A DNA stretch of 64,000 nucleotides from Rhizobiales bacterium 62-17 (lineage in GTDB: Bacteria > Pseudomonadota > Alphaproteobacteria > Rhizobiales > Beijerinckiaceae). The notes beneath the pieces were generated by a model. That model searched no databases and was not told where the DNA came from. It saw only the letters and a program-made list of their open reading frames with translations. Below, piece by piece: positions 4,984 through 31,082 of this stretch; the stretch's first letter is position 1, and every line of letters starts with the position of its first letter. A program made the position numbers and the translations under genes. The DNA is taken from positions 742,317 to 806,316 of the forward strand of contig MKVW01000001.1 of the NCBI GenBank assembly GCA_001898965.1, written 5' to 3'.

Positions 4984-4989
4984 TGACTC

Positions 4990-6150
4990 CTATGGAACGG
5001 ATGTGAGGCGGGCAGGCGCGGCTTGGCGCACCTGCTGCCAGGCGCTGGTCAGATGCGCCGCGGCGGTGTCGATATCGTTGATGGTGGTCAGGCGGCCGAC
5101 GGACAGTCTGACGGCGCCGAGCGCCTGTTCAGGCGCAATGCCTAAGGCGAGCAGGATGGCGGACGGATCCTCGCGGTCGGCATGACAGGCCGATCCGGTG
5201 GACGCGAAAACCTGCGGACAGGCTTCGAGCAGCAGGCGGCCGGAGACATCGGGAAACAACACGTTCAACGTATTGGGCAAGCGTTCCGTCGGATGCCCGG
5301 CGAGGAGAAGATCGGGGATGTCGGCGTGCAATTGCGCCAGCAATCGGTCTCGCATCTGCGTCATGTGAAGCGTCGTCGCCGAAAGCTTGGTTCTGGCCAG
5401 GCGACAGGCTTCGCCAAGGGCAACGATGAACGCGACATTCTCAGTCCCTGGCCGCCGGCCGTGTTCCTGTCCGGCGCCGACGAGGACCGAGGGCACATCG
5501 ATGCCGCGCCGGACATAGAGAACGCCGATACCTTTGGGCGCATAAAGCTTGTGCCCGGCGATCGACAGAAGGTCGACGCCCATGGCATTCACGTCCACGT
5601 TGAGCTTGCCGACCGATTGCGCCGCATCCGCATGCATCAGCGCGCCGTGTGCCTTGGCGATATCAGCGATCTCGGCGATGGGTTGGATCGTGCCGATTTC
5701 GTTCTGGGCGTGGATGACGCTCACCAGTGCGGTGTGGCTATCGACCATGGAAGCGAACTGCTGGGGATCGACCAGGCCATCCGCATCGGCATCGACGCGG
5801 CGGATGTCGTAGCCGTCCTGCGCCAATAATGTACAGCAGGCATCGGTGGCCGGATGTTCGATATTGGTCGTGACGATGGCATGCCGCGCTTCATTTGAGC
5901 GCGCGCCGGAGCGAAGCGCGATATTGCTCGCCTCCGTGCCACCGCTGGTAAAGATGATTTCGTCGGGCTCGGCGCCGATCAGGCTGGCCACATGCGCCCG
6001 TGCCGTTTCGATGGCGGTGCGGGCGCGTTGCCCAAGCGCGTAGGAGGAGGACGGGTTGCCATAGTCACCACGCAGATAGGGAAGCATGGCTTCCAGCACA
6101 TCGGGATCGACAGGTGTGGTGGCGTTATAATCGAGATAGACCGCTTTCAT
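4990..6150 (-). CDS. Cysteine desulfurase (NifS/IscS class), selenium-linked
   Basis: 386 residues of class V aminotransferase fold. The PLP-binding lysine lies in SIAGHKLYAPKG and the catalytic cysteine in STGSACHADRE, a long flexible loop of the NifS/IscS class. It removes sulfur (or selenium) from cysteine (or selenocysteine) as a persulfide or perselenide. It lies between a TusA-like gene (9-base gap) and selD (6-base gap), so its likely role is to mobilise selenium for SelD; this is inferred from context. The window holds two more cysteine desulfurases in the SUF operon, which supports a separate job here. Confidence 0.93.
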   Translation of the reverse strand: MKAVYLDYNATTPVDPDVLEAMLPYLRGDYGNPSSSYALGQRARTAIETARAHVASLIGAEPDEIIFTSGGTEASNIALRSGARSNEARHAIVTTNIEHPATDACCTLLAQDGYDIRRVDADADGLVDPQQFASMVDSHTALVSVIHAQNEIGTIQPIAEIADIAKAHGALMHADAAQSVGKLNVDVNAMGVDLLSIAGHKLYAPKGIGVLYVRRGIDVPSVLVGAGQEHGRRPGTENVAFIVALGEACRLARTKLSATTLHMTQMRDRLLAQLHADIPDLLLAGHPTERLPNTLNVLFPDVSGRLLLEACPQVFASTGSACHADREDPSAILLALGIAPEQALGAVRLSVGRLTTINDIDTAAAHLTSAWQQVRQAAPARLTSVP

Positions 6151-6159
6151 CGCATGCTC

Positions 6160-6396
6160 TCAACGCTGTTTGACGATGCGAAAAATATAAAGCTGCTCGC
6201 GCTGGCTTTGGTCCGACAGATGATGGCCGGTCTGATTGACGAAATGCGGGATGTCGATGACCGTCAGCGGATCGGTGCATTCGAGCACCAGGGCGCCGCC
6301 GACGGGCACGTTGCGCAACGCTTTCTTGGCGCGCAGCACTGGCTGCGGGCAACGCACGCCGCGCAGATCGAGTATCATGTCGCCTTGATCGTCCAT
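6160..6396 (-). CDS. TusA/YedF-like sulfurtransferase
   Basis: About 78 residues with the TusA hallmark ILDLRGVRCPQPVLRAKKAL, in which the cysteine of the CPxP motif is the sulfur or selenium carrier. The start is uncertain: TTG 6414, ATG 6396 and ATG 6378 are all in frame; ATG 6396 is given as the middle choice, and the conserved domain begins at 6378. It heads a tight operon with the cysteine desulfurase and selD. TusA relatives near selD (YedF type) have been linked to selenium metabolism, so it may pass selenium from the desulfurase to SelD. This transfer role is an inference. Confidence 0.85.
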   Translation of the reverse strand: MDDQGDMILDLRGVRCPQPVLRAKKALRNVPVGGALVLECTDPLTVIDIPHFVNQTGHHLSDQSQREQLYIFRIVKQR

Positions 6397-6416
6397 CAGG
6401 ATCACGAAAGCCAAAC

Positions 6417-6448: not shown

Positions 6449-7543
6449 TCAAACGCTCACTTCCCGCGCCGTGATCGAATAGCGGAACGTGTCGGGATCG
6501 AGGCAATCGAGCCGTCCTGCCACGGTCTCGGCCTGCGGATACATCAGGAATTCCACCGCCGGCCCCTGGGCACCGGGCAGAGCGATGTCATGTCCGAAGT
6601 TATAGGCGAGCCAATTGCCTTCCCAGGCACCGAAGAGGGCGGCACGCGCGGCGGCGACCTTGGGATCGTTGAGCGGCAGATTGGCCGGCGGTTCTTCCAG
6701 GGCGACCTTGCGCACGTCGGCAGGATCGACCGGCACCCAGCCAAGACCCTCGAGATAGACCTCGGCGCGGCAATGCTGAGCCTTGGTGATATTGGCCGAA
6801 CCGGCGCCGAGGCTCTTGTAGCCAAACTGCGAGGGCGCCGCGCGAATGCCGTAGACATCCCGCGCCGGCAGGCCGGCGGCCCGCGCCAGGCCGACATAGA
6901 GCGCGTTAAGATCGGCGCATTTGCCGGTGAGGTTGCCGCTGGTCAACATGGCGGCAACATCGCCGATACCGCAGCCGCGTGTCGAGGCGTTGCGCGCGGT
7001 GTTTTCGACCACCCATTCGAAAATGCGGCGCGCCTTGTCGAGGTCCCGTGTCGCATCGCCGACGATCTTGTCGGACGTCTGCTTGACGATGCCATCGGTC
7101 GGGATGAGGGTCGTCGGCCCGGTGTAGAGCTTGCGATCGCTCTCGGAGAGGGCAGCCGCCAGGCCGGGTTTGCTCAGATCGATCGCGCGATCTTGCGTGG
7201 TGGCCGTGCTGACGACCTCGATAACGGGCGATTGGCCGGCATCCCAGGCGACATGAACGAAGCCAGCCTTGTATTTCGCATCATGCTGCAAGGACGCGGT
7301 GCCATTGGTCGTCCACTTGCTGTCGCCGGATTTGAACCAGTCGGCCTCGTTGACGGATGGCACCGGAATCCAGGCTTGCACCTTGCCGTCCGGTTTGGCG
7401 ATCTCGAGCTTGGTGACGATCTCGAATTTCCGCCATGTGCCCGGTTTGGGCGCGAAGCTCTGCGCGCGCGCAAAGCCTGGCATGGCGGCGATGGCCGTCA
7501 ACGCGCCACCGGCTTTCAACAGATCACGGCGATGGTACTGCAT
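6449..7543 (-). CDS. Exported transglutaminase-like protein
   Basis: 364 residues from ATG 7543, chosen because GGAGGGG stands just upstream. The N-terminus MQYHRRDLLKAGG is a twin-arginine signal ending near ARAQS, so the protein is exported, probably folded, by Tat. The central to C-terminal part is a transglutaminase/papain-like domain: the cysteine is in LTGKCADLNALY, the histidine in KAQHCRAEVY and the aspartate in VPVDPADV. Such domains act as amidases or proteases, or as scaffolds. It overlaps the end of the upstream tlpA-like gene by 20 bases, so the two are translated together. The substrate and any link to the flanking selenium genes are unknown. Confidence 0.8.
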   Translation of the reverse strand: MQYHRRDLLKAGGALTAIAAMPGFARAQSFAPKPGTWRKFEIVTKLEIAKPDGKVQAWIPVPSVNEADWFKSGDSKWTTNGTASLQHDAKYKAGFVHVAWDAGQSPVIEVVSTATTQDRAIDLSKPGLAAALSESDRKLYTGPTTLIPTDGIVKQTSDKIVGDATRDLDKARRIFEWVVENTARNASTRGCGIGDVAAMLTSGNLTGKCADLNALYVGLARAAGLPARDVYGIRAAPSQFGYKSLGAGSANITKAQHCRAEVYLEGLGWVPVDPADVRKVALEEPPANLPLNDPKVAAARAALFGAWEGNWLAYNFGHDIALPGAQGPAVEFLMYPQAETVAGRLDCLDPDTFRYSITAREVSV

Positions 7544-8147
7544 GTTGCTCCCCTCCATTTGACAGTGAATTCTCAAGTGCTGGGACATCGACCTGATCCC
7601 AGGAATAGTCGCTTTCGACGAACAGGCGTGGCTGCAGGTTGACGTCGAGAATGTAGGTCGTCGGCAAAGCCGAAACCTTCCACGATCGGGCGACGCTGCG
7701 ATCGCGATCGAGCAGGACCGGGAAGGTGAGTGGCATCTTGTCGAGGAAGGTGCGGACGCGCGCTTCCGGCTCGGCGACGGAAATCGTCAGGACACGGAGC
7801 GTGCCGGCGCGTTCGGTCAGCCGTTGCAACGCCGGCAGTTCGACACGGCAGGGCTCGCACCAAGTCGCGAAAAAGTGAACGAGGACAGGACGGCCATGCA
7901 GATCGTTCAGGACCGTTGAAACCCGTTCGCTGTCTTCCAGCGTGAAGGTGGGTTTGGGCTCTTGCGGGGCGGGGATGAGGCGGGGCGGCCCTTCGCTCTG
8001 CGCGAAAGCACTGACGCCAAGAATGTTCAGCGCCACTGCCGCAGCGATCGGCAAGGCCCGTTGCGTCCAAACGTGTGCGCCCCGAACCTCGGGAGCTGTT
8101 GCTTGCGCCACGACAACAATGTGCCGGCCAATGCGCGTGCGGGTCAA
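7524..8147 (-). CDS. TlpA/ResA-like exported thioredoxin
   Basis: 207 residues from a TTG at 8147; an in-frame GTG at 8111 is also possible. A hydrophobic signal segment (ALPIAAAVALNILGVSAFA) is followed by a thioredoxin domain with the redox motif FFATWCEPCRVELPAL, and the SALPTTYIL cis-proline segment. TlpA and ResA proteins reduce disulfides in the periplasm, often for cytochrome or metalloenzyme assembly. It is translationally coupled to the transglutaminase-like gene and divergent from the formate dehydrogenase operon, so a role in maturation of an exported enzyme is plausible but not shown. Confidence 0.85.
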   Translation of the reverse strand: MTRTRIGRHIVVVAQATAPEVRGAHVWTQRALPIAAAVALNILGVSAFAQSEGPPRLIPAPQEPKPTFTLEDSERVSTVLNDLHGRPVLVHFFATWCEPCRVELPALQRLTERAGTLRVLTISVAEPEARVRTFLDKMPLTFPVLLDRDRSVARSWKVSALPTTYILDVNLQPRLFVESDYSWDQVDVPALENSLSNGGEQHAVPSP

Positions 8148-8462: not shown

Positions 8463-11400
8463 ATGAACATGGAGCTCTCGCGGCGCCGCTTTCTACAAGG
8501 CGCCGGTGCGGGTCTCGCAGGTACGACAATCGGCGCATTTGGATTTGGGGATGTTGAAACCGCATACGCGGCTGCTATTCGTCCCTTCAAACTCGCCAAC
8601 CTGACAGAGACGCGAAACACCTGTCCGTATTGCTCGGTGGCATGCGGCATCATCATGTATTCGAAGGGCGATTTGAAGAAAGGCGAAAAGGCCGACATCG
8701 TCCATATCGAAGGCGATGCCGACCATCCGACCAATCGGGGCACGCTCTGCCCGAAGGGGTCGGCGCTGCTCGATTTCGTTCATTCGGACACGCGCCTGCA
8801 ATATCCGATGATCCGCAAGCCCGGTTCGGACAAGTTCGAACGTGTGAGCTGGGATCAGGCGCTCGATCGGATCGCTCGTCTGTGGAAGGACGATCGCGAT
8901 CAGAATTTCGTCGCCAAGAACAACGATGGCACGACGGTGAATCGGTGGGTCACCACCGGCTTCCTCGCGGCCTCGGCGACCACCAATGAAACGGCTTTCG
9001 CGACCTACAAGGTGGTGCGCAGCGCCGGCATGCTCGTATTCGACAATCAAGCGCGGGTCTGACACGGCCCCACGGTGTCCAGTTTGGGCCCAACGTTTGG
9101 TCGCGGTGCGATGACGAATTCGTGGACGGATATCCGCAACACGGATCTGGTTGTGATCATGGGTGGCAACGCCGCTGAGGCGCACCCGTGCGGTTTCAAA
9201 TGGGTGACGGAAGCGAAGGCCAATCGCGGTGCGAAGCTCATCGTCGTCGATCCGCGTTTCACGCGCTCGGCCTCGGTAGCGGATTACTATTCGCCGATCC
9301 GCCAGGGCACCGACATCGCCTTCCTGCTCGGCGTCATCAACTACTGCATGACCAACGACAAGGTGCAGTGGGATTACGTCAAGGCCTTCACCAATGCGAC
9401 CTACTTGGTCAAGGAAGGTTTCCAGTATCAGGACGGCCTGTTCACCGGCTACGACGAGAGCCGACGCGACTATAACCGTTCGACCTGGGATCTGGAGATC
9501 GGTCCCGACGGCTATGTGGTCGTCGACGACACGTTGCAGAATCCGCGTTGCGTCTGGAACATGCTCAAAGCGCATGTCGCCCAGTACACGCCGGACATGG
9601 TCTCGCGCATCTGCGGCACGCCGAAGGACAAGTTCGTCAAGGTGTGCGAGATGATCGCCGAGACGTCGGCGAAGAACAAAACCATGACGTCGATGTATGC
9701 GCTCGGTTGGACGCAACACTCCAAGGGGTCGCAGAACATCCGCACCATGGCGATGCTGCAGCTCATTCTGGGCAATATCGGCGTGCGCGGCGGCGGCATG
9801 AATGCCTTGCGCGGTCATTCCAACATTCAAGGTCTGACCGACATCGGCCTCATGTCGAACCTCATCCCCGGTTATCTGACAATACCGACGGAGCGGGAAA
9901 CCACGATCGACACCTATATGTCGACGCGCGGCTTCAAGCCTCAGCGGCCGAACCAGATGAGCTTCTGGCAAAACTACAAGAAGTTCTTCGTCAGTTTTCA
10001 GAAGTCCATGTGGGGCGCGGCGGCCACCGCCGACAACAACTGGGCCTATGACTATCTGCCGAAGCTCGACGTGCCAGCCTATGACGTTCTGCGTGCCTTC
10101 GATCTGATGCATCAGGGCAAGATGAACGGTTACTTCTGCCAGGGCTTCAATCCGCTGCTCTCCTTCCCGAACCGGAAGAAGATCACGGCGGCGCTCTCCA
10201 AGCTCAAGTTCCTGGTCACCATGGACCCGCTGGAGACGGAGACGGCACGGTTCTGGGAAAACCACGGCGACTATAACGACGTCGATCCGTCGAAGATCCA
10301 GACCGAAGTGATCCAGTTGCCTTCGACTTGCTTTGCCGAGGACGAAGGCGCGCTGGTCAACTCCGGCCGGTGGCTGCAATGGCATTGGCCCGGCGCGACA
10401 CCACCGGGCGAGGCCAAGACGGACACGTGGATCATGGCGCAGATCTTTCTGCGCGTGAAAGCGCTGTACGAAAAGGAAGGCGGCGCCTTCTCCGATCCGA
10501 TCACCAAACTTTACTGGCCCTATAAGGACCCGAACGATCCTCTCGCCGAGGAGCTTGCCAGGGAACTGAACGGCTATGTCGTGGAGACGGTGACCGATCC
10601 GAGCGACCCGACCAAGGTTTTGCTCGAGAAGGGCAAGCAGGTGGCCGCTTTTGGCGTCTTGCGTGACGACGGCACGACGGCTTGCGGCTGCTGGATCTAT
10701 TCCGGCTGCTTCACTGAGGCGGGCAATAACATGGCCCGGCGCGACAACAAGGATCCGGACGAGACGGGCGCCTATTCCAACTGGGCGTTCTCCTGGCCGG
10801 CCAACCGCCGCATCCTCTACAACCGGGCCTCCGCCGACCTTGAAGGCAAGGCCTGGGATCCGACGCGCAAGCTTATCGAGTGGGACGGCACGAAATGGGC
10901 GGGCTATGATGTGCCCGACATCGCGGTGAACGCCAAGCCGAGCGAAGTCGGCCCGTTCATCATGAACCAGGAAGGCACGGCGCGCCTGTTCGCACGCGGA
11001 CTGATGCGCGACGGACCGTTCCCGGTCCATTACGAGCCGTTCGAGTCGCCGGTTCAAAACGTCGTGGCGCCAAAGGTGCGCGGCAATCCGGTGGCGCGCG
11101 TCTTCCGTGGCGACATGGAACAGTTCGGCGAGGCCAAGGAGTTCCCCTATGCGGCGACCTCCTATCGCTTGACTGAGCATTTCCACTTCTGGACCAAACA
11201 CGTGCGGCCCAACGCCGTCGTCCAGCCCGAATTCTTTGTCGAGATTTCGGAGCAACTGGCGAAGGAGAAGGGCATCACCTCCGGTGGCTGGGTCCGCGTC
11301 TGGTCGAAGCGCGGCTCGGTGAAGGCCAAGGCCGTGGTGACCAAACGCATCACGCCGCTGACCTGTGACGGCAAGACCGTCCATGTCGTCGGCGTGCCGC

Positions 11401-11543
11401 TGCACTGGGGCTTCACCGGTGTCGCCAAGAAAGGGTTCGGGCCTAACAGCCTGACGCCCTATGTCGGCGACGCCAACATCGAAACGCCCGAATACAAGGC
11501 GTTTCTGGTCGATATCGAGCCCATCGCCGGGCCGGTGGCATAA
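8463..11543 (+). CDS. fdnG: Formate dehydrogenase major (alpha) subunit, selenocysteine-containing
   Basis: One 1026-residue protein read through an in-frame UGA at 9060-9062, which encodes selenocysteine 200. The context VFDNQARV-Sec-HGPTV matches Sec196 of E. coli FdnG, and the downstream part ([15 protein letters not shown]) continues in the same frame. A twin-arginine signal lies at residues 6-11 (SRRRFL), so the enzyme faces the periplasm. The [4Fe-4S] cysteines are Cys54, Cys57, Cys61 and Cys96. The rest is the molybdopterin-dinucleotide-binding oxidoreductase fold of the DMSO reductase superfamily. It oxidises formate to CO2 and passes electrons to FdnH and FdnI. Automatic gene callers would split it into 8463-9062 and 9075-11543. 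Confidence 0.97.
9060..9091 (+). promoter_or_regulatory. UGA selenocysteine codon with bacterial SECIS-like hairpin
   Basis: After the UGA at 9060-9062 and an 11-base spacer, GG (9074-9075) pairs with CC (9090-9091) and GUCC (9077-9080) pairs with GGGC (9086-9089). U9076 is bulged and the loop is AGUUU. The same plan, with a bulged U and a loop containing GU, is known for the E. coli fdhF and fdnG SECIS elements bound by SelB. The selB and tRNA-Sec genes lie in the same operon. Confidence 0.85.
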
Positions 11544-11557
11544 GGGAGACGAAGAAC

Positions 11558-12493
11558 ATGTATCCTCCTCTCCCAAATCCCACGGTCACCCCATCCGCGC
11601 CCAAGTTGAGCGATAAGAATCTCGTTCGCCGGTCCGCTTCGAGCGTACCGGCGGCCGAGCCGATGACTCAGGTCGCCAAGCTCATCGACGTGTCGAAATG
11701 CATCGGCTGCAAAGCCTGCCAGACGGCCTGTCTTGAGTGGAACAATTTGCGCGAGGAGGTGGGTGTCAACACCGGCACCTACGACAATCCGCATGACCTG
11801 ACCACGGCGACTTGGACCTTGATGCGTTTCACCGAGTGGGTGAATCCGCAGACGCAGAACCTTGAATGGCTGATCCGCAAGGACGGCTGCATGCATTGCG
11901 CCGACCCCGGCTGCCTCAAGGCCTGTCCGTCGCCGGGCGCCATCGTGCAATATTCCAACGGTATCGTCGATTTCGTGAAGGAAAATTGCATCGGCTGCGG
12001 TTATTGCGTGAAGGGCTGTCCCTTCAACATTCCGCGCATCTCCAAGACCGAGGGCAAGGCGTATAAGTGTACGCTGTGCTCAGATCGTGTGGCCGTCGGG
12101 CAGGGGCCGGCTTGCGCCAAAGCCTGTCCGACCCAGGCGATCGTCTTCGGTCCCAAGGAGGACATGAAGAAACATGCCGATGAGCGCATCAAGGATCTGC
12201 AATCGCGCGGCTTCAAGAACGCCGGGCTTTACGATCCGCCGGGTGTTGGCGGCACGCATGTCATGTACGTGCTGCATCACGCCGATCAGCCCCAGCTCTA
12301 TGCGAACCTCCCGAAGGATCCGACGATCAGCCCGATCGTCGAAATCTGGAAGGGCATGACCAAATACGCGGGTCTGGCGGTGATGGGTGCTGTCGCCGCG
12401 GTCGGCTTGCTGCATCATATCGTGGCGGGCCCCAACCGGGTCTCTCCCGAGGATGAAGAAGCGGCGAAACGGTTGGCTGAGAGGGGACAATGA
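11558..12493 (+). CDS. fdnH: Formate dehydrogenase iron-sulfur (beta) subunit
   Basis: 311 residues. Four ferredoxin-like cysteine clusters are visible: [12 protein letters not shown] near the N-terminus, [28 protein letters not shown] and [10 protein letters not shown] with ACAKACP. These hold four [4Fe-4S] clusters that form the electron wire from FdnG to the cytochrome subunit. A single membrane helix near the C-terminus ([19 protein letters not shown]) anchors it. There is no signal peptide, as expected for a subunit carried by the Tat signal of FdnG. It begins 14 bases after fdnG and its stop overlaps fdnI. Confidence 0.96.
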
Positions 12494-13155
12494 GCAATTC
12501 AGAAATCGACCCCGGAGACGCAGTCCATCCTGGCAATCCTGTCACCGTCGACCGTTACACGGCGGCCGCGCGGGTCAACCATTGGATCACGGCGATCAGC
12601 CTCGTGCTGCTCGCTCTGTCTGGCCTGGCTCTCTTCCACCCAAGCCTGTTCTTCCTGACGGTCTTCTTCGGTGGTGGCGAATGGACCCGCACCATCCATC
12701 CTTGGCTCGGCGTGGTTCTGTTCGTGAGCTTCCTCGGTCTGTTCTTCCGCTTCTGGAAGCTCAATCTGTGGAAGCGCGAGGACGGCACGTGGTTGGCGCG
12801 TGTGCGTGACGTCGTCGCCGGCCACGAGGAGAAACTGCCGGAGGTCGGCAAATATAACGCCGGCCAGAAGCTGGTGTTCTGGTCGATGTCGCTCCTGATC
12901 CTGGTGCTGATCACCAGCGGCATCGTGATCTGGGATCAATATTTCGGTCCTTATTTCACGATCACGCAGAAGCGCGTCGCCGTTCTCGTTCACGCCGTCA
13001 CGGCGGTGATCGCGATCAGCGTCTGGATCGTCCACGTCTATGCGGCGATCTGGGTGCGCGGCACCATCGGCGCCATGACCAGCGGCCAGGTGACCGGCGG
13101 TTGGGCTTGGCGGCATCATCGCAAATGGTTGCGCAATTTGGTGGCGAAGCATTGA
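12490..13155 (+). CDS. fdnI: Formate dehydrogenase cytochrome b556 (gamma) subunit
   Basis: 221 residues with four membrane helices: about residues 30-55 ([19 protein letters not shown]), 75-95 ([17 protein letters not shown]), 130-150 ([19 protein letters not shown]) and 165-190. Histidines for two haem b groups include VNHWI near the N-terminus and [18 protein letters not shown] in the last helix. It passes electrons from FdnH to quinone. It overlaps the fdnH stop by four bases (ATGA), which indicates translational coupling. Confidence 0.95.
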
Positions 13156-13159
13156 GGTA

Positions 13160-13195
13160 GACGCGCCGCCGGCTGTCCGGCCGGCGGGGCGCCAC
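13160..13195 (+). other. GC-rich hairpin between fdnI and fdhE
   Basis: GCCGCCGGC and GCCGGCGGGGC pair around TGTCC in the 76-base gap after fdnI. There is no T-run, so it is more likely a partial terminator or mRNA stabiliser that lowers expression of the accessory genes than a full stop of transcription. Confidence 0.4.
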
Positions 13196-13231
13196 ACTGC
13201 ACGTGGCCCGGAGGGTTCGTGAGGTTGAGAG

Positions 13232-14149
13232 ATGAGTAATGCCGGCGCACCGCGCCATGATCCTGTTCCCATCGGGGCGGTGGCCAAGCCGCCCTTCGCC
13301 CGACTCCCCGATCCGACCAATTTGTTCGCGACCCGCGCCGAACGTTTGCGCGTGTTGGCGTCCGCACATCAGCTCGGGCCTTACCTGACTTTTTTGGCCG
13401 ATCTCGCTGAGACCCAGCATCGCATTCAGGATGGTCTGCCGGAGCCGGACGTGCCGCCGCTGGAGGCGCGCGAGCGTGCCCGGCAATTCGACATGCCGCC
13501 CATTGACCGCGCCCGTTTCGTCACCGAGCCGACGCTCGAAACCACGCTCGACCGGCTGTTCGACCAGGCCGTCACCATCGACATGCCGGACACCGCACGT
13601 GGCGCGCTCGATGCCGTCAGGCGTGCCAGCCCCTCGACGCGAGACGATATGGTGCGGGCAGTTCTCGCCAATGCCATTCCGATGGAGAGCCTGGCGAGCC
13701 ATGTCTTCGTCGCGGCCGCCATGCAGGTGCATTTCGCCCGCGTTGCGGCACGGCTTGATGCGGAACGACTGGTGCCCGTGGGCGATGCCTTATGCCCGGT
13801 CTGTGGCGGTCCGCCCGTTTCGTCCGTTGTCGTCGGTTGGCAGAATGCCGCCAATACGCGCTTTTGCGTTTGCGCGCTCTGCGAGACCTGGTGGCACTAT
13901 GTCCGCATTCGTTGCACCGTTTGCGGCACCACCAAGGGCATGGGCTACAAGGAGATCGATGGCGTGGCCTCGAACGTCCAGGCCGAGACCTGCGAGGAAT
14001 GCCGCAGCTATGTGAAAATCCTGCATCAGCATAAGGAGCCTTCGCTCGAGCCGGTTGCCGACGATGTGGCAACCCTGGGGCTCGATCTACTGGTGCGCGA
14101 AGCCGGCTATCGACGCGGTGCTTTCAATCCCTACCTGCTTGGTTATTGA
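13232..14149 (+). CDS. fdhE: Formate dehydrogenase accessory protein FdhE
   Basis: 305 residues, the normal FdhE length. The C-terminal half holds four paired-cysteine motifs, CPVC, CALC, CTVC and CEEC, which form the rubredoxin-like iron or zinc sites of FdhE. FdhE is a cytoplasmic factor needed for assembly or activation of Tat-exported respiratory formate dehydrogenases. It lies directly after the structural genes and 10 bases before selA. Confidence 0.95.
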
Positions 14150-14159
14150 GGAGGGGGCG

Positions 14160-15569
14160 ATGTCGCAGGCTGAAATCCACAATCCGCGCCGCCTCCCGTC
14201 AGTCGATGAAGTTCTGAAAACCGACGTAGCTGTGGCAGCCATCGCGCGGTTCGGCCGTCCGGCTGCTGTTGAGGCGGTGCGCGATACGCTGGCAGCTTTG
14301 CGGGCCGACAAGAGGCCGGGCACCAGTGCGGAAATAGCAGGCCTCGCCGCGCAGCGGCTGGAGGCGCAGGATCGCTCCAGCCTGCGTCCCGTGTTCAATC
14401 TCACCGGCACCGTCCTGCACACGAATCTCGGCCGCGCTTTGATCGCCGACGTGGCGATCGAGGCGGCCGTACAGGCGATGCGCAATGCGGTCTCGCTCGA
14501 ATTCGATGTCGACGACGGCAAGCGCGGCGAGCGCGACGATCATGTACGTGCGCTGCTCTGCGAACTCACCGGCGCGGAAGACGCGACGGTCGTCAACAAC
14601 AATGCCTCCGCTGTTCTGCTGGCGCTCAACACCCTGGGCCAAGGCCGCGATGCCATCGTCTCGCGCGGTGAGCTGATCGAGATCGGCGGTGCTTTCCGCA
14701 TGCCCGATATCATGGCTCGCGCCGGCGCGCGCCTGGTTGAGATCGGCACCACGAACCGCACCCATCGCAAGGATTATGTCGGCGCCATTGGGTCTGACAC
14801 CGGTCTGGTGCTGAAAGTTCACACGTCCAACTATCGCATCGAAGGTTTCACCGCCGAAGTCGAAGCGCGTGAACTGGTCGAGATCGCGCGCGAGCGCAAA
14901 GTGCCCGTCGTGCACGATCTTGGCTCCGGCACTCTGGTCGATCTGCGTCGTTTCGGCCTGAAACATGAGCCGACCGTAGCGGAGGCCGTCGCCGACGGCG
15001 CCGATCTCGTCACCTTCTCCGGCGACAAACTGCTTGGTGGCCCGCAGGCCGGCTTCATCGTCGGGCGCAAGGAACTACTGGCACAGGTGAACCGCAATCC
15101 GATGAAGCGCGCGCTGCGGGTCGACAAGGTCCGGCTGGCGATGCTGGAGGCGACACTCAAACTCTATCGCGATCCCGATCGCTTGGCTGAGCGCCTGCCG
15201 ACCATGCGCCTGCTGGCGCGGCCCCGCGCTGATATCGAAGCGCAGGCGAAACGGCTCGTGCCCGTTCTGACCAAAGCCATCGGACAGAAGTTTGCCGTCG
15301 ACATCGTCGCCTGTGCGAGCCAGATCGGCTCCGGTGCCTTGCCGCTCGAAGCCATTGCCAGCGCTGGTCTCGCCCTGCGCCCGGTCGATGGCAGCGGCCG
15401 TGCCTTGAATCAGCTTTCCGCCGCTTTGCGCAGCCTGCCCATTCCGGTGATCGGCCATATCGCCGACCAAAGTCTGGTGCTTGATCTACGCTGCCTCGAC
15501 GATGAAGCCGGCTTTATCGCCAATCTGTCGAAGCTCGATCTCAAGGGCGGAGCCGATGCAGTGGCTTGA
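14160..15569 (+). CDS. selA: L-seryl-tRNA(Sec) selenium transferase SelA
   Basis: 469 residues from ATG 14160, chosen because GAGGAGGGGG lies just upstream. It converts Ser-tRNA(Sec) to Sec-tRNA(Sec) using selenophosphate. The PLP lysine is Lys290 in [13 protein letters not shown]. The N-terminal part ([10 protein letters not shown]) and the [14 protein letters not shown] segment are typical of SelA. The stop lies 14 bases inside the next gene, so the Sel1-repeat gene is probably translated in coupling. Confidence 0.97.
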
Positions 15570-16365
15570 ACGCCTGTTCGGCAAATCGAAGGCCGAGGAT
15601 GTGGATGTTGCCGCCACCATGGCGGCCGCCTATCAGGCCTCGAGCCGGGGCGACTATGCCAAGGCTCTCGATCTTTGGGCACCATTGGCGCATGCCGGTG
15701 TTCCGCGTGCGCAAAACAATATCGGCGCCTGTTTCGCTGAAGGGCTTGGCGTCGAGCGTGATGACGCTCTGGCCCTGAAATGGCTGACGCTGTCCGCCGA
15801 TGCGGGCGACCCCGTCGGCCGACGCAATCTGGCGGCGCTCTATTTCAAGGGACAGGACTCGCTTGGCCAAGGCATCGAAGCCGATTTCGACCGTGCCGCC
15901 GAACTCTATCGGCTCGCGGCAGAGGCTGGCGATGGCCCGGCGCAGGACATGCTGAGCTGGATGCTGCTCGAAGGCGAGACCATCACGCTTGATCCGGCCG
16001 AGGCGCGGCGCTGGGCTTTAGCGGCGGCAGAGCAGGGCGTTGCCGCGTCGATGACCCGGCTTGGCATGATCTATCACAACGCGCTGGGCGTGGAGCGCGA
16101 TCCGGCGGAAGCCGCTGCCTGGTGGCGCAAGGCCGCGGCCGCTGGCGATGCCGATGGTCAGGCCATGCTGGGCGCGGCGCATCACCTTGGCGCCGGCGTG
16201 CCGCGCGATCCGGTGCAGGCACTCGCCTTGCTATTGCGCGCCAAAGCCAACGGCAGCGCGTTGGCGGATCCGTTTCTTCCGGCCGCCCGGCTATTTTTGA
16301 ACAGTACCGAGATCGCCGAAGCCGAGCAGCGGGCCGCCAAGCCGGATGTGGAGGCCGTCGCATGA
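15556..16365 (+). CDS. Sel1-like repeat (TPR-like) protein between selA and selB
   Basis: 269 residues from ATG 15556, overlapping selA by 14 bases. After about 35 residues the protein is built of Sel1-type helical repeats: units with the pattern A-x-x-x-L-G-x-x-Y/C-x-x-G-x-G-V-x-x-D-x-x-x-A appear as [20 protein letters not shown], the [22 protein letters not shown] region, [20 protein letters not shown] and [20 protein letters not shown]. No signal peptide is seen. Such repeats bind other proteins. Its stop overlaps the selB start (ATGA). The position suggests an adaptor for selenocysteine synthesis or formate dehydrogenase assembly, but no function is known. Confidence 0.88.
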
Positions 16366-18422
16366 TCGTCGGAACCGCCGGTCATATCGATCACGGCAAG
16401 ACCTCGCTGGTTCAAGCGTTGACTGGCGTCGACACGGATCGGTTGAAGGAAGAAAAGAAGCGCGGCATTTCCATCGATCTTGGCTTCGCTTATTTGCCGG
16501 CGCCCGATGGCTCCATCGTCGGCTTCATCGACGTGCCAGGGCATGAAGCTTTCGTGCGCAACATGCTAGCCGGGGCCACCGGTATCGATCTCGCCTTGCT
16601 GGTTGTCGCGGCCGACGACGGCGTGATGCCCCAGACGCGTGAACATCTGATGATCGTCGATCTCCTTGGCATCAGGCACGGCATTGTTGCCCTCACGAAG
16701 GCCGACCTGCTGGCGCCCGAGGATCGGGGCCGTGTGATCGCCGAGATCCATCAGGCTTTAAGCGGAACCGCTTTGGCGCAAGCCGAGATCATACCGGTTT
16801 CAGTGGTCAGCGGCGAAGGCGTCGACGAACTGCGGACACGCCTGTTCGATTGGCAGACGCGGTTGAAACGGCAGGCCGACGACGGCCGCTTTCGGCTTGC
16901 TGTTGATCGCTGCTTCGTGTTGCAGGGCGCCGGCACGGTGGTGACGGGCACGGTCCTGTCTGGCCAGGTGGCGGTCGGCGACCACGTCACGATCAGTCCC
17001 TCCGGCCTCTCAGCCCGCGTGCGGTCCATTCACGCCCAGAACCAGCCACGCGAGCGCGGACTGGCCGGCGAGCGGTGCGCGCTCAATCTGGCGGGTGAAG
17101 GCGTAGCCAAGGATGCCATCCGGCGTGGCGACGTGGTGCTTGATCCACATTTGCATGCGCCGACCGATCGCATCGATGCGAAGGTTCGGCTGCTGGCCGG
17201 CGAAAGCAAGCCTTTGGCGCAGTGGATGCCGGTGCGCCTGCATCATGCCGCCGTCGAAGTGGGCGCGCGCATCGTTCTGCTCGACGATGAACCGGTGCAG
17301 CCGGGCACCGAGGCCTTCGTGCAATTGGTTCTGGAACATCCGATCGCCGCGGCTGTCGGCGATCGGTTCGTTCTGCGTGACACCACTGGCCAGCGCACCA
17401 TTGGTGGCGGCACGCTCCTTGATCTGCGCGCCCCGGCGCGCAAACGCCGCACGCCGGAACGCCTTGGGCAGATCGAAGCCCTGGCGCTTGGTGAGCCTGC
17501 GGGCGTATTGGCGGCTTTGTTGGCACGATCGCCATTCTCGGTCGATCTAACAGCCTTCGCCCGCGATCACGCGCTTAACGCCCCGGCGATGGATGCGCTG
17601 ATCGACCGACAAGGTGTGTTGCGCATTCGCGCGCAAAACGCTGAACTCGGCCTCTCGCCCGCGACGTGGCTGAAACTCAAGCGCGATCTGTTGGCGACGC
17701 TCGAAAGCTTCCATACCGACAATCCCGATCTGCCGGGCATCGGTCTCGAGCGGCTGCGGCTGCAGCTTCTGCCGCGCCTGCCAGCGCCAACCTTTCTGTC
17801 TTTCTTGCAAGGATTGGCGAAGGGTGGCGAAGTCGGCTTGCAGGGCGCCTGGGTGCGCTTGCCAGGCCATGAGGTGCGCCTGACGTCGGCGGACGAACAG
17901 GTATGGAGCAAAATTCGGCCGATGATCGCCGATGCCGAGCGCTTTCGCCCGCCGCGCGTTCGCGATATCGCCGGCATTATCGGCCTGCATGAAAACGATA
18001 TCCGCCGCCTGTTCAAATTGCTGGGACGCATGGGCTTGGTCGACGAGGTGGCGCACGATCATTTCTTTCTGCGCGGCACCGTCGCCGAAATGGTCGATAT
18101 TGCTGTCGACGTGGCGAGCCAGGCGCCGAAAGGTGAATTCTCAGCCGCGCAATTGCGCGACCGGCTCGACAACGGTCGCAAGGTGGCGATCCAGATTCTT
18201 GAATTTTTCGATCGCCATGGCGTGACATTGCGGCGTGGCGATCTACGCCGTATGAACCGTCATCGGGTCGACCTGTTTCGTTCATCGAACGACAGGCCAA
18301 CAGATGGAAGAGAAGCGTTCCCGGTGGGGCGTCCGGACTTCAAATCCGGGAGGGGCCGCGAGACGGTCCTTGGTGGGTTCGACTCCCTCTCTCTTCCGCC
18401 ATCATCCAGGAGCGCGCTGTGA
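16362..18422 (+). CDS. selB: Selenocysteine-specific elongation factor SelB, extended through selC
   Basis: 686 residues as the frame reads. The GTPase domain is clear: GTAGHIDHGKTSL at residues 4-16, DVPGHE, and TKADL. Beta-barrel domains and C-terminal winged helices follow, ending near NRHRVDLF at about residue 643, where SelB proteins normally stop. Here no stop occurs and the frame runs through the tRNA-Sec gene (residues 649-680) to a TGA at 18420-18422, which overlaps the GTG of the next gene. SelB carries Sec-tRNA to the ribosome at SECIS-marked UGA codons. Whether the extra 43 residues exist in the cell is uncertain. Confidence 0.93.
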   Translation: MIVGTAGHIDHGKTSLVQALTGVDTDRLKEEKKRGISIDLGFAYLPAPDGSIVGFIDVPGHEAFVRNMLAGATGIDLALLVVAADDGVMPQTREHLMIVDLLGIRHGIVALTKADLLAPEDRGRVIAEIHQALSGTALAQAEIIPVSVVSGEGVDELRTRLFDWQTRLKRQADDGRFRLAVDRCFVLQGAGTVVTGTVLSGQVAVGDHVTISPSGLSARVRSIHAQNQPRERGLAGERCALNLAGEGVAKDAIRRGDVVLDPHLHAPTDRIDAKVRLLAGESKPLAQWMPVRLHHAAVEVGARIVLLDDEPVQPGTEAFVQLVLEHPIAAAVGDRFVLRDTTGQRTIGGGTLLDLRAPARKRRTPERLGQIEALALGEPAGVLAALLARSPFSVDLTAFARDHALNAPAMDALIDRQGVLRIRAQNAELGLSPATWLKLKRDLLATLESFHTDNPDLPGIGLERLRLQLLPRLPAPTFLSFLQGLAKGGEVGLQGAWVRLPGHEVRLTSADEQVWSKIRPMIADAERFRPPRVRDIAGIIGLHENDIRRLFKLLGRMGLVDEVAHDHFFLRGTVAEMVDIAVDVASQAPKGEFSAAQLRDRLDNGRKVAIQILEFFDRHGVTLRRGDLRRMNRHRVDLFRSSNDRPTDGREAFPVGRPDFKSGRGRETVLGGFDSLSLPPSSRSAL
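18306..18401 (+). tRNA. selC: tRNA-Sec (anticodon TCA)
   Basis: 96 bases including the encoded CCA. The eight-base acceptor stem GGAAGAGA / TCTCTTCC, the anticodon arm CCGGA-CTTCAAA-TCCGG with anticodon TCA at 18340-18342, a long extra arm and a T arm with GGTTCGA are all present, as in bacterial tRNA-Sec. It lies on the same strand as, and inside, the 3' part of the open selB frame. Confidence 0.97.
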
Positions 18423-18874
18423 CCGTTGCGACGCCGTCCTTTCTCGATCATCTCCAACGCGCCACCCACCGTAGCGACGAGGCCGAGGCGGCCTTGCGCC
18501 AGGAAATGTCGGCGCGCCTGAGAAAAATCGAGGAAGACCGCAAATTCGCTTATCGTCGGTTCAACTTCATGCGTGCGGTTGCCGAGGGCATGCAAAGCGC
18601 CGACAGCGAGGAAATCGCCTTGGCCCGTGCCGTCGGCGTTCTGCGCACCAAGCTCGGCTGGTCAAGCGACAGTGAGGTGCGGCAGGCGATTTGCGAGAAT
18701 TTCGCGCCCGTCGCGCAAGCCATTTTCGCCTGCCGCGATCCGGCGGGGGAGCCGGAAGCGGACGTGATCGCCGCCCTCGATCGGTTCGAAAGCTGGTATC
18801 ATGACAAGCATGGCTCGGCTTTCTGGATATTGTTCGAGCACTATATTCCGGAGACGCCCGTTGTCGACTTCTGA
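18419..18874 (+). CDS. Unknown protein after selB-selC
   Basis: 151 residues from a GTG at 18419 with AGGAG at 18408-18412. Its start overlaps the selB-frame stop (GTGA). I do not recognise the family. The middle is charged and helical, with a likely coiled segment around residues 20-50 (LRQEMSARLRKIEEDRKFAY). The C-terminus FWILFEHYIPETPVVDF is aromatic-rich and looks like a conserved motif. No signal peptide or membrane helix. It is the first of four packed genes after selB-selC, all on the plus strand, so it probably belongs to the formate dehydrogenase/selenium operon. Confidence 0.75.
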   Translation: MTVATPSFLDHLQRATHRSDEAEAALRQEMSARLRKIEEDRKFAYRRFNFMRAVAEGMQSADSEEIALARAVGVLRTKLGWSSDSEVRQAICENFAPVAQAIFACRDPAGEPEADVIAALDRFESWYHDKHGSAFWILFEHYIPETPVVDF

Positions 18875-19250
18875 GACTCCCGTCAGCGACTTCGAAGCCT
18901 GGATCGCCAGTGAATTTGCTGCGACCGGCGAGTTCACGGCGCTGGTCATCCTCGTCGACACGGGCACGGCGAAAGTGACGCCGCTGTGCTCGACCTATTT
19001 CAACGTCATCGGCGATGAGATCACATGGGGCGAGATCGTCGTCATGTTCGCCGGCTCTGGTGCTGATTGGGATGGCGCGGCTTTCTTTCCCACCACCGCA
19101 AGCCAGGGCGGCCCACTGGACAATCCAACCGCGCGCGTCAGGCTGCGTGAACTTGAGGCCCGTGTCGATGACGATCGTCTGGTGCTGAACGAAGGCCATT
19201 TCTTCGACAAATGGGGCCGCCGCATGCGCATCGACGAGGTAACGCAGTGA
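18861..19250 (+). CDS. Unknown protein, second gene of the sel-operon tail
   Basis: 129 residues from TTG 18861, chosen because GGAG lies seven bases upstream and the start overlaps the end of the previous gene by 14 bases. An ATG at 18801 is also in frame but lies deep inside that gene. I do not recognise the family. The sequence is mixed alpha/beta, acidic, with an aromatic stretch (ITWGEIVVMFAGSGADWDGAAFF) and no cysteine clusters except one Cys. No signal peptide. The overlaps on both sides of this set suggest a complex with the products of the neighbouring genes. Confidence 0.7.
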   Translation: MSTSETPVSDFEAWIASEFAATGEFTALVILVDTGTAKVTPLCSTYFNVIGDEITWGEIVVMFAGSGADWDGAAFFPTTASQGGPLDNPTARVRLRELEARVDDDRLVLNEGHFFDKWGRRMRIDEVTQ

Positions 19251-19266
19251 TCGGACATGTCCTGCC

Positions 19267-19644
19267 ATGAGCACGCGGCTGCTGGTCGTTCTTCTCAACA
19301 CCGATCCGCGCAATGCCGAGGAGTTGGGCGCGCCCTTCTATCATGCGGCGGTCGCGGCAGCGATGGACTACCAGGTCGATATCGTCTGCACGGCGGCTGC
19401 CGGCAAGCTGATGATCAAGGGCGTTGCCGAAAAGATTCACATCAAGCCCGGTCATCCTAAAACCGTCTATGACTGGATCAAGGAGGCGCATGACCACGGC
19501 GCCAAGCTTTGGGCTTGCCCGGCCAATCTCGATCTCTTCGACATTGACGAGAGCGACCTCATTCCCGAATGCAGCGGCTTGATGGGCGCCGCTGCCATGA
19601 TCCAGGATGTGATGGACGGCTCCTGCCGCGTTCTCACCTATTGA
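19267..19644 (+). CDS. DsrE-family sulfur-carrier-like protein
   Basis: 125 residues, the usual size of DsrE/YchN-fold proteins. It begins with the beta strand TRLLVVLLNTDP, has VDIVCTAAAG, and carries Cys84 in KLWACPANLDLF and Cys102 in PECSGLMGAA, the region where active DsrE proteins bind persulfide. Proteins of this fold carry sulfur between TusA-type and other partners. Its place 16 bases after the unknown protein and just before a GcvH-like gene, in a selenium operon, suggests a sulfur or selenium relay; this is inference. Confidence 0.8.
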   Translation: MSTRLLVVLLNTDPRNAEELGAPFYHAAVAAAMDYQVDIVCTAAAGKLMIKGVAEKIHIKPGHPKTVYDWIKEAHDHGAKLWACPANLDLFDIDESDLIPECSGLMGAAAMIQDVMDGSCRVLTY

Positions 19645-19652
19645 GGCGGGCG

Positions 19653-20093
19653 ATGGTCATCATCCAGGACTGCGATTTTCCCGAACATCTCCACTACGAC
19701 GTCGAAAACCAGATCTGGTACGAGCCGCTGGCTGACGGAACTGTGCGCACTGGCTTCACCCGCTGGGCGGCCAATCTCATGGGTGATGTGCTGGTCTTTA
19801 CGCCCAAGCGCATCGGCCGGGATTTCGAGAGGGACAAGTCTTTCGCCGTGGTCGAGGGCGGCAAATGGGTCGGCTCGGCCCGGGCTGCCTTCGAGGGGGC
19901 CGTCATCGCCCACAACGAACGGCTTGAGAAAAAGCCGGAACTTTTGAACCAGGACGCCTATGGCGAGGGCTGGATGCTGATCGTCCGGCCCGCCCACGCG
20001 GACTGGCAGGCCGGGCTCGTCACCGGGCCTGCCATCGCCCCCACCTTCCAAGCCTGGTTCGATACCGGGTCCTATAAGGATCGCACGGCGTAG
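19653..20093 (+). CDS. GcvH-like (lipoyl-domain) protein
   Basis: 146 residues from ATG 19653. The segments HLHYDVENQIWYEPLADGTV, GFTRWAANLMGDVLVFTP, KSFAVVEGGKWVGS and ELLNQDAYGEGWMLIV follow the glycine-cleavage H protein fold. Lys71 in VVEGGKWVG lies where the lipoylated lysine of GcvH stands (ESVKA), though the flanking residues differ. No other glycine-cleavage gene is in the window. GcvH-like lipoate-binding proteins are known in sulfur-oxidation systems with DsrE and TusA partners, so this may be a lipoyl carrier. It ends the operon before a hairpin at 20134-20155. Confidence 0.8.
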   Translation: MVIIQDCDFPEHLHYDVENQIWYEPLADGTVRTGFTRWAANLMGDVLVFTPKRIGRDFERDKSFAVVEGGKWVGSARAAFEGAVIAHNERLEKKPELLNQDAYGEGWMLIVRPAHADWQAGLVTGPAIAPTFQAWFDTGSYKDRTA

Positions 20094-20133
20094 AGCCCGC
20101 AGCCCAATTGGCGTAGAATTGATCGTCGGCCGG

Positions 20134-20155
20134 CCGCCTGTGCCTGGACAGGCGG
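20134..20155 (+). terminator. Hairpin after the sel-operon tail
   Basis: CCGCCTGT / ACAGGCGG, eight perfect pairs around GCCTGG, 41 bases after the GcvH-like stop. No T-run follows, so termination is only likely, and an operator for the LuxR gene is an alternative. Confidence 0.45.
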
Positions 20156-20200
20156 GACCGTTTGGTTTCTGGGTGGGGAAGAACCCGAGGGAGGGGATTG

Positions 20201-20995
20201 ATGCGGGTGCATGACCTTGGACATTCTGGCGCCGGCCGTCACGGTCTGCGGGCCATGGCCGCCATGGTCGCCCAAATTGGTCAGCCGGACTTTGGCGGCG
20301 CCTTGTTCAGCCTGTCCCATGACCTGCTGGCGGTGGATCATGTGACCGCCTTCTGCGCGGCGCCGGAAGGCATCATCCGCACCGTGGTGGCCGAGAACAA
20401 AGGACCGCGCCCGGTCGCGCGCGCGGTGGCCGAACGCTATGTACGGACCCATTGGATGAGCGATCCGGTGATGCGATTGCTTGCCGAAGCGCCACGGGAG
20501 CGGCGATCCGTCTCGACGAACCTCATCGTCGATATCAATGCCAGGGACGTCGACGATCGAGCCTATCGCAACGAATGCTATGGCGCCGTCAATCTCAACC
20601 ATCGCCTATCAATCGTCGAGACCCGCGACGACCATGTGATGCGATTGAATTTCTATCGTCGCTGCGGCCATGACTTCCGCGACGAGGATATCGATTGCCT
20701 GGCGGAGATGGCCGACCTGCTGTTGGCGCTCGTCTGGCGCCACGACTATGAGAGCCGCCCAAAGCCCGTCCAAGACCTTGAATGGCAGTTCAGCGAACGG
20801 TTGGCCGCCTTGGCGCCGGCTTTGACGGCGCGCGAGCGACAGGTTTGCGCCCTGGTCGCCCTTGGCCTGACGTCCGAAGGCATCAGCCTGCGTCTCAACA
20901 TCGGGCTCAACACGGTCCTGACCTATCGCAAACGTGCCTATGCCCGTTTGGGGATCAGTTCGCAGAACGAGCTGATGCGGCGCCTCATGTCATGA
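20201..20995 (+). CDS. LuxR-family transcriptional regulator
   Basis: 264 residues from ATG 20201 with GAGGGAGGGG upstream; a TTG at 20162 is less likely. The C-terminal 60 residues are a LuxR helix-turn-helix: LTARERQVCALVALGLTSEGI and LNIGLNTVLTYRKRAYARLGI. The N-terminal 190 residues contain no recognised acyl-homoserine-lactone domain; they may be a GAF- or PAS-like sensor. A good terminator follows, so it is likely transcribed alone. Its target could be the preceding selenium operon or the following dehydrogenase gene; neither is shown. Confidence 0.88.
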   Translation: MRVHDLGHSGAGRHGLRAMAAMVAQIGQPDFGGALFSLSHDLLAVDHVTAFCAAPEGIIRTVVAENKGPRPVARAVAERYVRTHWMSDPVMRLLAEAPRERRSVSTNLIVDINARDVDDRAYRNECYGAVNLNHRLSIVETRDDHVMRLNFYRRCGHDFRDEDIDCLAEMADLLLALVWRHDYESRPKPVQDLEWQFSERLAALAPALTARERQVCALVALGLTSEGISLRLNIGLNTVLTYRKRAYARLGISSQNELMRRLMS

Positions 20996-30979: not shown

Positions 30980-30987
30980 GCGTAGCG

Positions 30988-31038
30988 ATGGGGATGGAGT
31001 TCCCCGATACCCGCCGCGAAGGCTGATGACTCCTACTG
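30988..31038 (+). promoter_or_regulatory. Fluoride riboswitch aptamer (crcB motif)
   Basis: The sequence GGGGATGGAGTTCCCC followed by CCGCC and GGCTGATGACTCCTAC matches the conserved crcB RNA motif: a GATGG-type 5' part, a short hairpin, and the CTGATGACTCCTAC 3' part whose CTCC can pair with GGAG. It lies directly upstream of a fluoride channel gene and has its own terminator. Binding fluoride would prevent termination and turn crcB on. Confidence 0.93.
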
Positions 31039-31082
31039 CGACCTGGGCCGTAAAGGCTCCGCCGTGGTGGGATTCGATGATG

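Follow-up and report, generated by a model that had tools for sequence, protein, structure and literature searches.

A DsrE-LbpA-like gene pair behind selB in a selenocysteine formate dehydrogenase operon of Rhizobiales bacterium 62-17: a candidate branch of lipoyl carriers

What do the four genes that stand behind selB contribute to a selenocysteine formate dehydrogenase (Sec-FDH) operon? The operon lies in a 64,000-nucleotide stretch of contig MKVW01000001.1 of Rhizobiales bacterium 62-17 (here, the window), and the four genes, designated g1 to g4, form its end (Table 1). They had been described from the sequence alone as one four-gene tail that might move sulfur, selenium, or one-carbon units. 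We find instead that they are two modules, g1-g2 and g3-g4. Judged by sequence, g3 is related to the DsrE3C-type carrier and g4 to the lipoate-binding protein LbpA, both of Hdr-like (sHdr) sulfur oxidation. Genes of this type are linked to Sec-FDH operons in many genomes, and the explanation that we prefer, with roughly even chances of being correct, is that g3-g4 is a specialized DsrE3C-LbpA lipoyl carrier branch that would relay sulfur or selenium to the selenocysteine-containing membrane formate dehydrogenase.

Identity and distribution of the g3-g4 pair

The g3 protein matches PF13686 (40.6 bits) and PF02635 (28.7 bits), both above the cut-off, and is 59% identical to the DsrE protein of an sHdr cluster (the copy at locus L023; throughout, G000 is the window genome, and other G- and L-numbers denote genomes and loci in the comparison samples). 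Among its cysteines (residues 41, 84, 102, and 120), the pair Cys84 and Cys102, which had been singled out earlier together with Lys71 of g4, was confirmed from the residues and is kept in all Sec-FDH rows compared. Lys71, likewise confirmed, stands within the motif GGKWVG, and this lysine too is kept in all Sec-FDH rows. The g4 protein matches PF01597 (GCV_H) with 86.2 bits but stays under the gcvH cut-offs (TIGR00527, 65.6 versus 115.85 bits; NF002270, 93 versus 117 bits), and a true gcvH is found elsewhere in the window genome, on contig C9 (143 bits, versus 86 bits for g4). In trees, g4 falls with LbpA and well away from true GcvH, which long branches join to the rest. Two conserved cysteines, one near each terminus, are given as the hallmark of LbpA by Cao et al. 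(2018; PMC6067878), with the exception of some archaeal proteins. We call g4 LbpA-like rather than LbpA because it does not have both: Cys7 is present and the C-terminal cysteine is absent.

The copies beside Sec-FDH operons are set apart phylogenetically. In the larger trees, from which loci L114, L121, L128, and L177 were excluded, Sec-FDH rows form clades of their own for both g3 (support 100/98) and g4 (99/93), with 11 rows each, and the smaller trees agree. The g3 proteins of Sec-FDH genomes form one clade of 15 rows (99/95), separate from the sHdr and hydrogenase copies, and it holds only genomes with an observed formate dehydrogenase operon and sel genes. Thus, the expected co-occurrence with Sec-FDH holds for the clade of the window, although it fails for the g3 family as a whole. 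All four genes are under purifying selection: the ratio of nonsynonymous to synonymous substitution rates (dN/dS) for g1 to g4 is 0.107, 0.092, 0.025, and 0.159 against G022 (selB, 0.120) and 0.132, 0.071, 0.066, and 0.101 against L061 (selB, 0.178).

The seven named g3-g4 loci were found by way of g2 and so cannot by themselves tie g3 to selenocysteine; support independent of g2 comes from G022, G011, G544, G639, and G715, all found by searching with g3. Among 61 relatives, this search gave six matches, three with Sec-FDH (G000, G022, and G011) and three with sHdr (G045, G054, and G056). The order sample (297 genomes) gave matches in 27 genomes and the class sample (385 genomes) in 17; contexts were counted only for matches above 100 bits, 20 and 15 respectively, with seven weaker ones dropped from the order sample and two from the class sample. 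The 20 order matches lie with sHdr (9), with a hydrogenase (5), with no Hdr, hydrogenase, or LbpA gene nearby (5), or with Sec-FDH (1), and the sHdr clusters of the order with such homologues carry hdr genes and LbpA as well as LipS and lipoate ligase. In the class sample the split is sHdr 9, Sec-FDH 4, and other 2. The association of g3 with SelB in the order sample is weak (4/22 versus 16/275; Fisher P = 0.05). We rejected g3 as a general selenocysteine marker because SelB over the cut-off is lacking from 16 of the 20 order genomes with matches above 100 bits.

The class search contributed three new Sec-FDH cases, G544, G639, and G715, all from another family (f108). In these, a ligase gene lies directly before fdnG (the ligase domain was confirmed in two of the three) and the DsrE-LbpA pair is divergent. 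In G715, whose contig stops within selA, no SelB over the cut-off was found. The two class matches counted as other show further arrangements: in G423 an LbpA-like gene directly follows g2 in the Sec-FDH locus, with DsrE and ligase genes elsewhere, and in G596 g2 adjoins the Sec-FDH operon and the DsrE and LbpA genes lie apart from it. SelB over the cut-off was present in 13 of 16 chosen genomes (the exceptions being G368, G603, and G715), a count on which we base no claim; in six of the 13, selB is more distant (40 to 42% identity) and the stretch read has no fdn matches.

The gene contents of related operons, taken together with the trees, can in our reading be arranged as a loss series. L142 (genome G361, of the window's genus) has the uninterrupted order fdnGHI-fdhE-selA-TPR-selB-selC-g1-g2-LipS1-LipS2-ligase-DsrE-LbpA (TPR, tetratricopeptide repeat), in which LipS1 and LipS2 match NCBIfam models with 178 and 181 bits, under cut-offs of 230 and 270, and the ligase has a lipoyl-ligase domain (143 bits). 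The same order is present in G011 across two contigs, both broken in LipS2. At L062 and L064 a ligase stands between g2 and DsrE (ligase-DsrE-g4), and the L068 contig ends within such a ligase just after g2. DsrE and g4 directly follow g2 in the window, G022, L061, L063 (Bradyrhizobium sp. Ec3.3), L065, L066, and L067; among the 21 named g2 loci, DsrE-g4 lies behind g2 at seven. The window operon holds no hdr genes, and an HdrB1 query found no match in G000, G022, or G011, other hdr genes being outside that search. Behind g4 in L061 (L061:11447-14205) are a YeeE/YedE-type gene for sulfur transport, a second look-alike, and a gene for an ArsR-family regulator, reminiscent of the SoxT and sHdrR genes of sHdr islands.

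The g1-g2 module and the layout of the operon

The first module follows SelB. Within the 297-genome order sample, g2 was found in 13 of 22 genomes positive for SelB at the curated cut-off and in none of the 275 others (Fisher P = 3e-17, a value that exaggerates the independence of the 13 positives, 8 of which share one genus). Occurrence in genomes without selenocysteine genes, which the sequence-only reading had named as decisive, is therefore split between the modules: g2 is confined to SelB genomes in this sample, whereas the g3 family is not. The 21 named g2 loci come from a scan of titled genome contigs; selB is within the fetched stretch at 20 of them, the exception being L072 (Methylopila jiangsuensis). 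In G112 the fdn-sel operon and g2 share a contig and are some 29 kb apart, and on Sinorhizobium meliloti pSymA g2 immediately follows a selC that is displaced from selB. There were 60 plasmid records with g2; a search of plasmid records gave none with g3. The g1 gene is frequently upstream of g2 but is much more divergent in sequence; a g1 match also lies behind selB in G544.

A nested selC followed by two open reading frames (ORFs), ORF1 and ORF2, is already known from Alphaproteobacteria (Mukai 2021; PMC8124441), and g1 and g2 are probably these ORFs, judging by position and distribution rather than by sequence comparison. A single four-gene unit is not supported, because g2 occurs without g3-g4 behind it at 14 of the 21 named loci (at two of them, L068 and L069, the contig ends less than 600 bases from g2) and because g1-g2 match the published ORF1/ORF2 positions. 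Neither g1 nor g2 reached a Pfam or NCBIfam family, and their best structure models, although confident (mean predicted local distance difference test scores of 86.7 for g1 and 91.8 for g2), gave no meaningful match in the PDB. We propose that they encode accessory proteins. One contig titled uncultured Burkholderiales (L068:5002-7588) carries selB, selC, g1, g2, and the beginning of a lipoate ligase gene. This is outside the Alphaproteobacteria, the limit given for ORF1/ORF2 in PMC8124441, and the contig belongs to a metagenome bin that may be misassigned.

The arrangement described earlier, four closely spaced or overlapping plus-strand genes that begin on the selB-frame stop codon, proved correct. 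The stop (18420-18422) is overlapped by the GTG start of g1, g1 and g2 overlap by 14 nucleotides, and gaps of 16 and 8 nucleotides separate g2 from g3 and g3 from g4. The TTG start of g2 is our choice, the listed ORF opening upstream at 18801; the listed ORF of g4 opens at 19569, upstream of its ATG. The selB frame reads through the whole of selC. A selC nested in this way was seen in 17 of the 36 rows read (at least one genome is present twice), and ATGA or GTGA closes the selB frame in 11 of the 17. Scanned for consensus elements, positions 17800-20400 yielded no sigma-70-like promoter on the plus strand and three terminator-like sites (2.2 expected); of these, a single site, within g2, is on the plus strand. 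Cotranscription of g1-g4 with the selB operon is plausible.

Table 1. Features of the Sec-FDH region of the window (window coordinates)
Feature	Position	Strand	Remarks
g1	18419-18874	+	151 amino acids (aa), GTG start; helical protein, probably ORF1 of Mukai 2021
g2	18861-19250	+	129 aa; alpha/beta protein, linked to SelB, probably ORF2 of Mukai 2021
g3	19267-19644	+	125 aa, DsrE family, near DsrE3C of sHdr clusters; Cys84, Cys102
g4	19653-20093	+	146 aa, ATG start; LbpA-like, GcvH domain; Lys71 at lipoylation position
selB	16362-18422	+	TIGR00475, 435.7 bits; frame runs through selC up to g1 start
selC (tRNA-Sec, anticodon TCA)	18306-18401	+	Nested in selB frame
Selenocysteine insertion sequence (SECIS) element of fdnG	9057-9115	+	RF01989, 79.1 bits
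fdnG, selenocysteine formate dehydrogenase alpha subunit	8466-11543	+	Start approximate
fdnH, fdnI, fdhE, selA, Sel1/TPR-like gene	11558-16365	+	Rest of operon upstream of selB; order conserved in relatives
selD, cysteine desulfurase-like gene, tusA-like gene	3931-6414	-	Adjacent genes; possible donor side of the proposed relay
tusA-like gene	6160-6414	-	

The stop codon at 9060-9062, which ends the frame before the SECIS element of fdnG, is read as selenocysteine (an in-frame UGA). On the minus strand, selD and the cysteine desulfurase-like and tusA-like genes could constitute a selenium donor set. Between that set and fdnG, also on the minus strand (6449-8147), are genes for a transglutaminase-like protein with a weak match to a twin-arginine translocation signal and for a thioredoxin-fold (TlpA-like) protein; the same pair stands before fdnG on the Terrarubrum plasmid. 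The window also has a fluoride riboswitch match at 30981-31042 (RF01734, 53.5 bits).

Relay, cargo, and competing explanations

For the relay, we infer lipoylation of g4 in the window organism and a direction, cargo, and partners as follows. A TusA-type carrier with bound sulfur or selenium would load Cys84/Cys102 of g3, and g3 would hand the cargo to the lipoyl group on Lys71 of g4. The lipoyl dithiol would then pass it on, or free sulfide or selenide, to the selenocysteine synthesis encoded in the same operon or to formate dehydrogenase maturation, and the lipoyl group would be reset by dihydrolipoamide dehydrogenase. A sulfur or selenium carrier, as the sequence-only reading also had it, is the natural interpretation because the genes are tied to Sec-FDH operons and belong to the DsrE/LbpA lineage; the linkage, gene order, phylogeny, and conserved lysine and cysteines are observed, and lipoylation and the cargo are conjectural. 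The relay gains support from relatives whose operon also encodes lipoate synthase and ligase. Precedents exist for its steps: DsrE and TusA proteins are sulfur carriers (PMC6067878), LbpA and DsrE take part in sulfane-sulfur transfer (PMC6067878 and PMC12423496), and dihydrolipoate can accept sulfane sulfur, which LbpA would present to an Hdr-like complex (Cao et al., PMC6067878). On the selenium side, YedF, a TusA-DsrE protein, has been linked to SelD and, as FdhU, to selenium-dependent formate dehydrogenase (PMC5322559, which cites work on FdhU/FdhT of Campylobacter jejuni), and complexes of thioredoxin with selenium have been put forward as a step from selenite to selenoproteins (PMC8538045).

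Several observations weigh against this relay. The pair is not essential for Sec-FDH, since two-thirds of the named g2 loci (14/21) are without it. FdhD, the known sulfurtransferase of formate dehydrogenase, is present in 22 of 24 genomes (the misses are in G011 and in G334, to which L062 belongs), and the idea of g3-g4 as an FdhD substitute was dropped on this account as a main explanation. The C-terminal LbpA cysteine is lost in all nine rows of the reduced type (which include L062 and L064) and the N-terminal one in seven of the nine, being kept only in the window and G022; both are kept in G011 and the three f108 rows. Queries with an sHdr ligase and the L062 ligase found no match in the window genome or G022, canonical ligases being outside these searches. 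LbpA is reportedly not modified by the Escherichia coli or Bacillus subtilis machinery (PMC10332631 and PMC6067878), and with no LipS or ligase of these types found in the window genome or G022, g4 may not be lipoylated there.

Finally, the cassette also occurs beside an enzyme with no selenocysteine. In five order genomes (L119 to L123; e.g., L120:2957-14613), lipoate ligase-DsrE-LbpA genes stand before a [NiFe] hydrogenase, which we take to be of the type named Isp, together with LipS1-LipS2 except at contig ends and with an HdrD-like CCG-domain protein where the contig reaches; no sHdr matches were found near these five cassettes. The hydrogenase large subunit has cysteine (DPCLAC) rather than selenocysteine in the two copies read (L119 and L120). 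Selenium as the factor common to all such cassettes was therefore rejected, and it is not their general cargo. Because selenium appears only in the formate dehydrogenase case, the shared theme is sulfur or thiol chemistry beside respiratory enzymes.

Within the relay, selenium as the cargo is a tentative choice. The boldest form would be a lipoic-acid selenium shuttle in which DsrE is loaded with selenium from a TusA or cysteine desulfurase donor and the lipoylated LbpA-like protein reduces it and delivers selenide to SelD, with LipS-ligase-DsrE-LbpA as a portable sulfur/selenium cassette; we regard it as speculative and rather doubtful. If true, the shuttle would give lipoate a role in selenocysteine synthesis, while the path by which selenium reaches that synthesis is still under investigation, and a portable cassette would attach to sulfur, formate, and hydrogen oxidation alike.

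Equally tentative is a version in which the pair delivers only sulfane sulfur, and never selenium, for the maturation of formate dehydrogenase (its Fe-S centers or the sulfido ligand of the molybdenum cofactor), the hydrogenase copies acting likewise; its share lies within that of the general relay. The cassette beside the cysteine-containing [NiFe] hydrogenase in the five order genomes and the YeeE-type transporter gene behind g4 in L061 fit it, as does the publication of DsrE and LbpA as sulfur proteins (PMC6067878 and PMC12423496). The prevalence of FdhD counts against it, as does the fact that hydrogenase and Sec-FDH copies are in different clades in the order and class samples.

Somewhat less probable is redox coupling, in which the lipoyl protein would carry electrons in the cytosol, linking the respiratory complex for formate (or hydrogen) with the pool of thiols and disulfides or of NADH, and DsrE would only keep it loaded or protected. 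The low potential of lipoamide (noted in PMC6067878) and the adjoining HdrD-like protein of the hydrogenase-linked cassette, a plausible disulfide reductase, are consistent with this, but no Hdr-like subunit was seen in Sec-FDH operons, and DsrE would be left superfluous. We consider it unlikely that g3-g4 is a hitch-hiking cassette for the handling or detoxification of sulfane sulfur, cotranscribed because of a shared need at low oxygen and without direct contact with the enzyme. Related DsrE genes do occur in sHdr clusters (9 of the 20 order matches above 100 bits) or away from Hdr, hydrogenase, and LbpA genes (5 of 20), but the two layouts in which different families have these genes next to the same Sec-FDH operon, the placement of LbpA behind g2 in G423 with DsrE and ligase elsewhere, and the strong constraint on g3 (dN/dS of 0.025) speak for a closer tie.

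It is more unlikely still that g4 of the window's reduced lineage has lost lipoate and now serves for binding or as a scaffold. As this would predict, G000 and G022 gave no LipS or ligase genes of the known types, and the LbpA cysteines are mostly gone; however, GKWVG around the lysine is exact in eight of the nine reduced-type rows (AKWVG in the ninth), and canonical ligases were outside the searches made. A GcvH-like carriage of aminomethyl or formyl groups for formate metabolism, as the glycine-cleavage or one-carbon role raised at the outset would have it, is very improbable, since g4 shares the PF01597 domain but falls far short of the TIGR00527 cut-off, groups with LbpA, and coexists with a separate true gcvH.

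Relation to known systems

The claim raised by the preferred relay is specific: that lipoate serves in the delivery of sulfur or selenium to a respiratory metalloenzyme, by a cassette that in some lineages has its own lipoate synthase and ligase and of which a further type stands beside a hydrogenase. To our knowledge, apart from those of sHdr, glycine cleavage, and the dehydrogenases for 2-oxoacids and acetoin, few lipoyl carriers have been described. In the part of the openly licensed literature that was consulted, we found no account that links lipoyl DsrE-LbpA cassettes to Sec-FDH operons, which suggests that the cassette in this setting is new and, at the same time, a variant of a known lipoyl carrier module.

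The g1-g2 module resembles ORF1/ORF2 of Mukai 2021 (PMC8124441) in its site behind selB-selC, the overlap of start and stop, and its distribution; DsrE, GcvH, and lipoate genes have no occurrence in the portion of that text consulted, whereas the window has g3-g4. GcvH shares PF01597 and the lysine position with g4, but g4 is under the gcvH cut-off and in another clade, with the true gcvH elsewhere in the genome. YedF/FdhU (PMC5322559) has a DsrE-type domain linked to SelD and selenium-dependent formate dehydrogenase; in contrast, g3 is a separate DsrE3C-like protein with a lipoyl-type partner, and none is mentioned for YedF in the parts of that source consulted. The closest likeness is to the lip-DsrE3C-sHdr-LbpA system of Hyphomicrobium denitrificans (PMC6067878, PMC10332631, and PMC12423496), which has homologous DsrE and LbpA-like proteins and which relatives of the window match even in the order of LipS1, LipS2, and lipoate ligase. 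The Sec-FDH loci read differ from it in having no hdr genes, in forming clades of their own, and in the loss of the C-terminal LbpA cysteine in the reduced type, and the partner of their cassette is the selenocysteine formate dehydrogenase operon.

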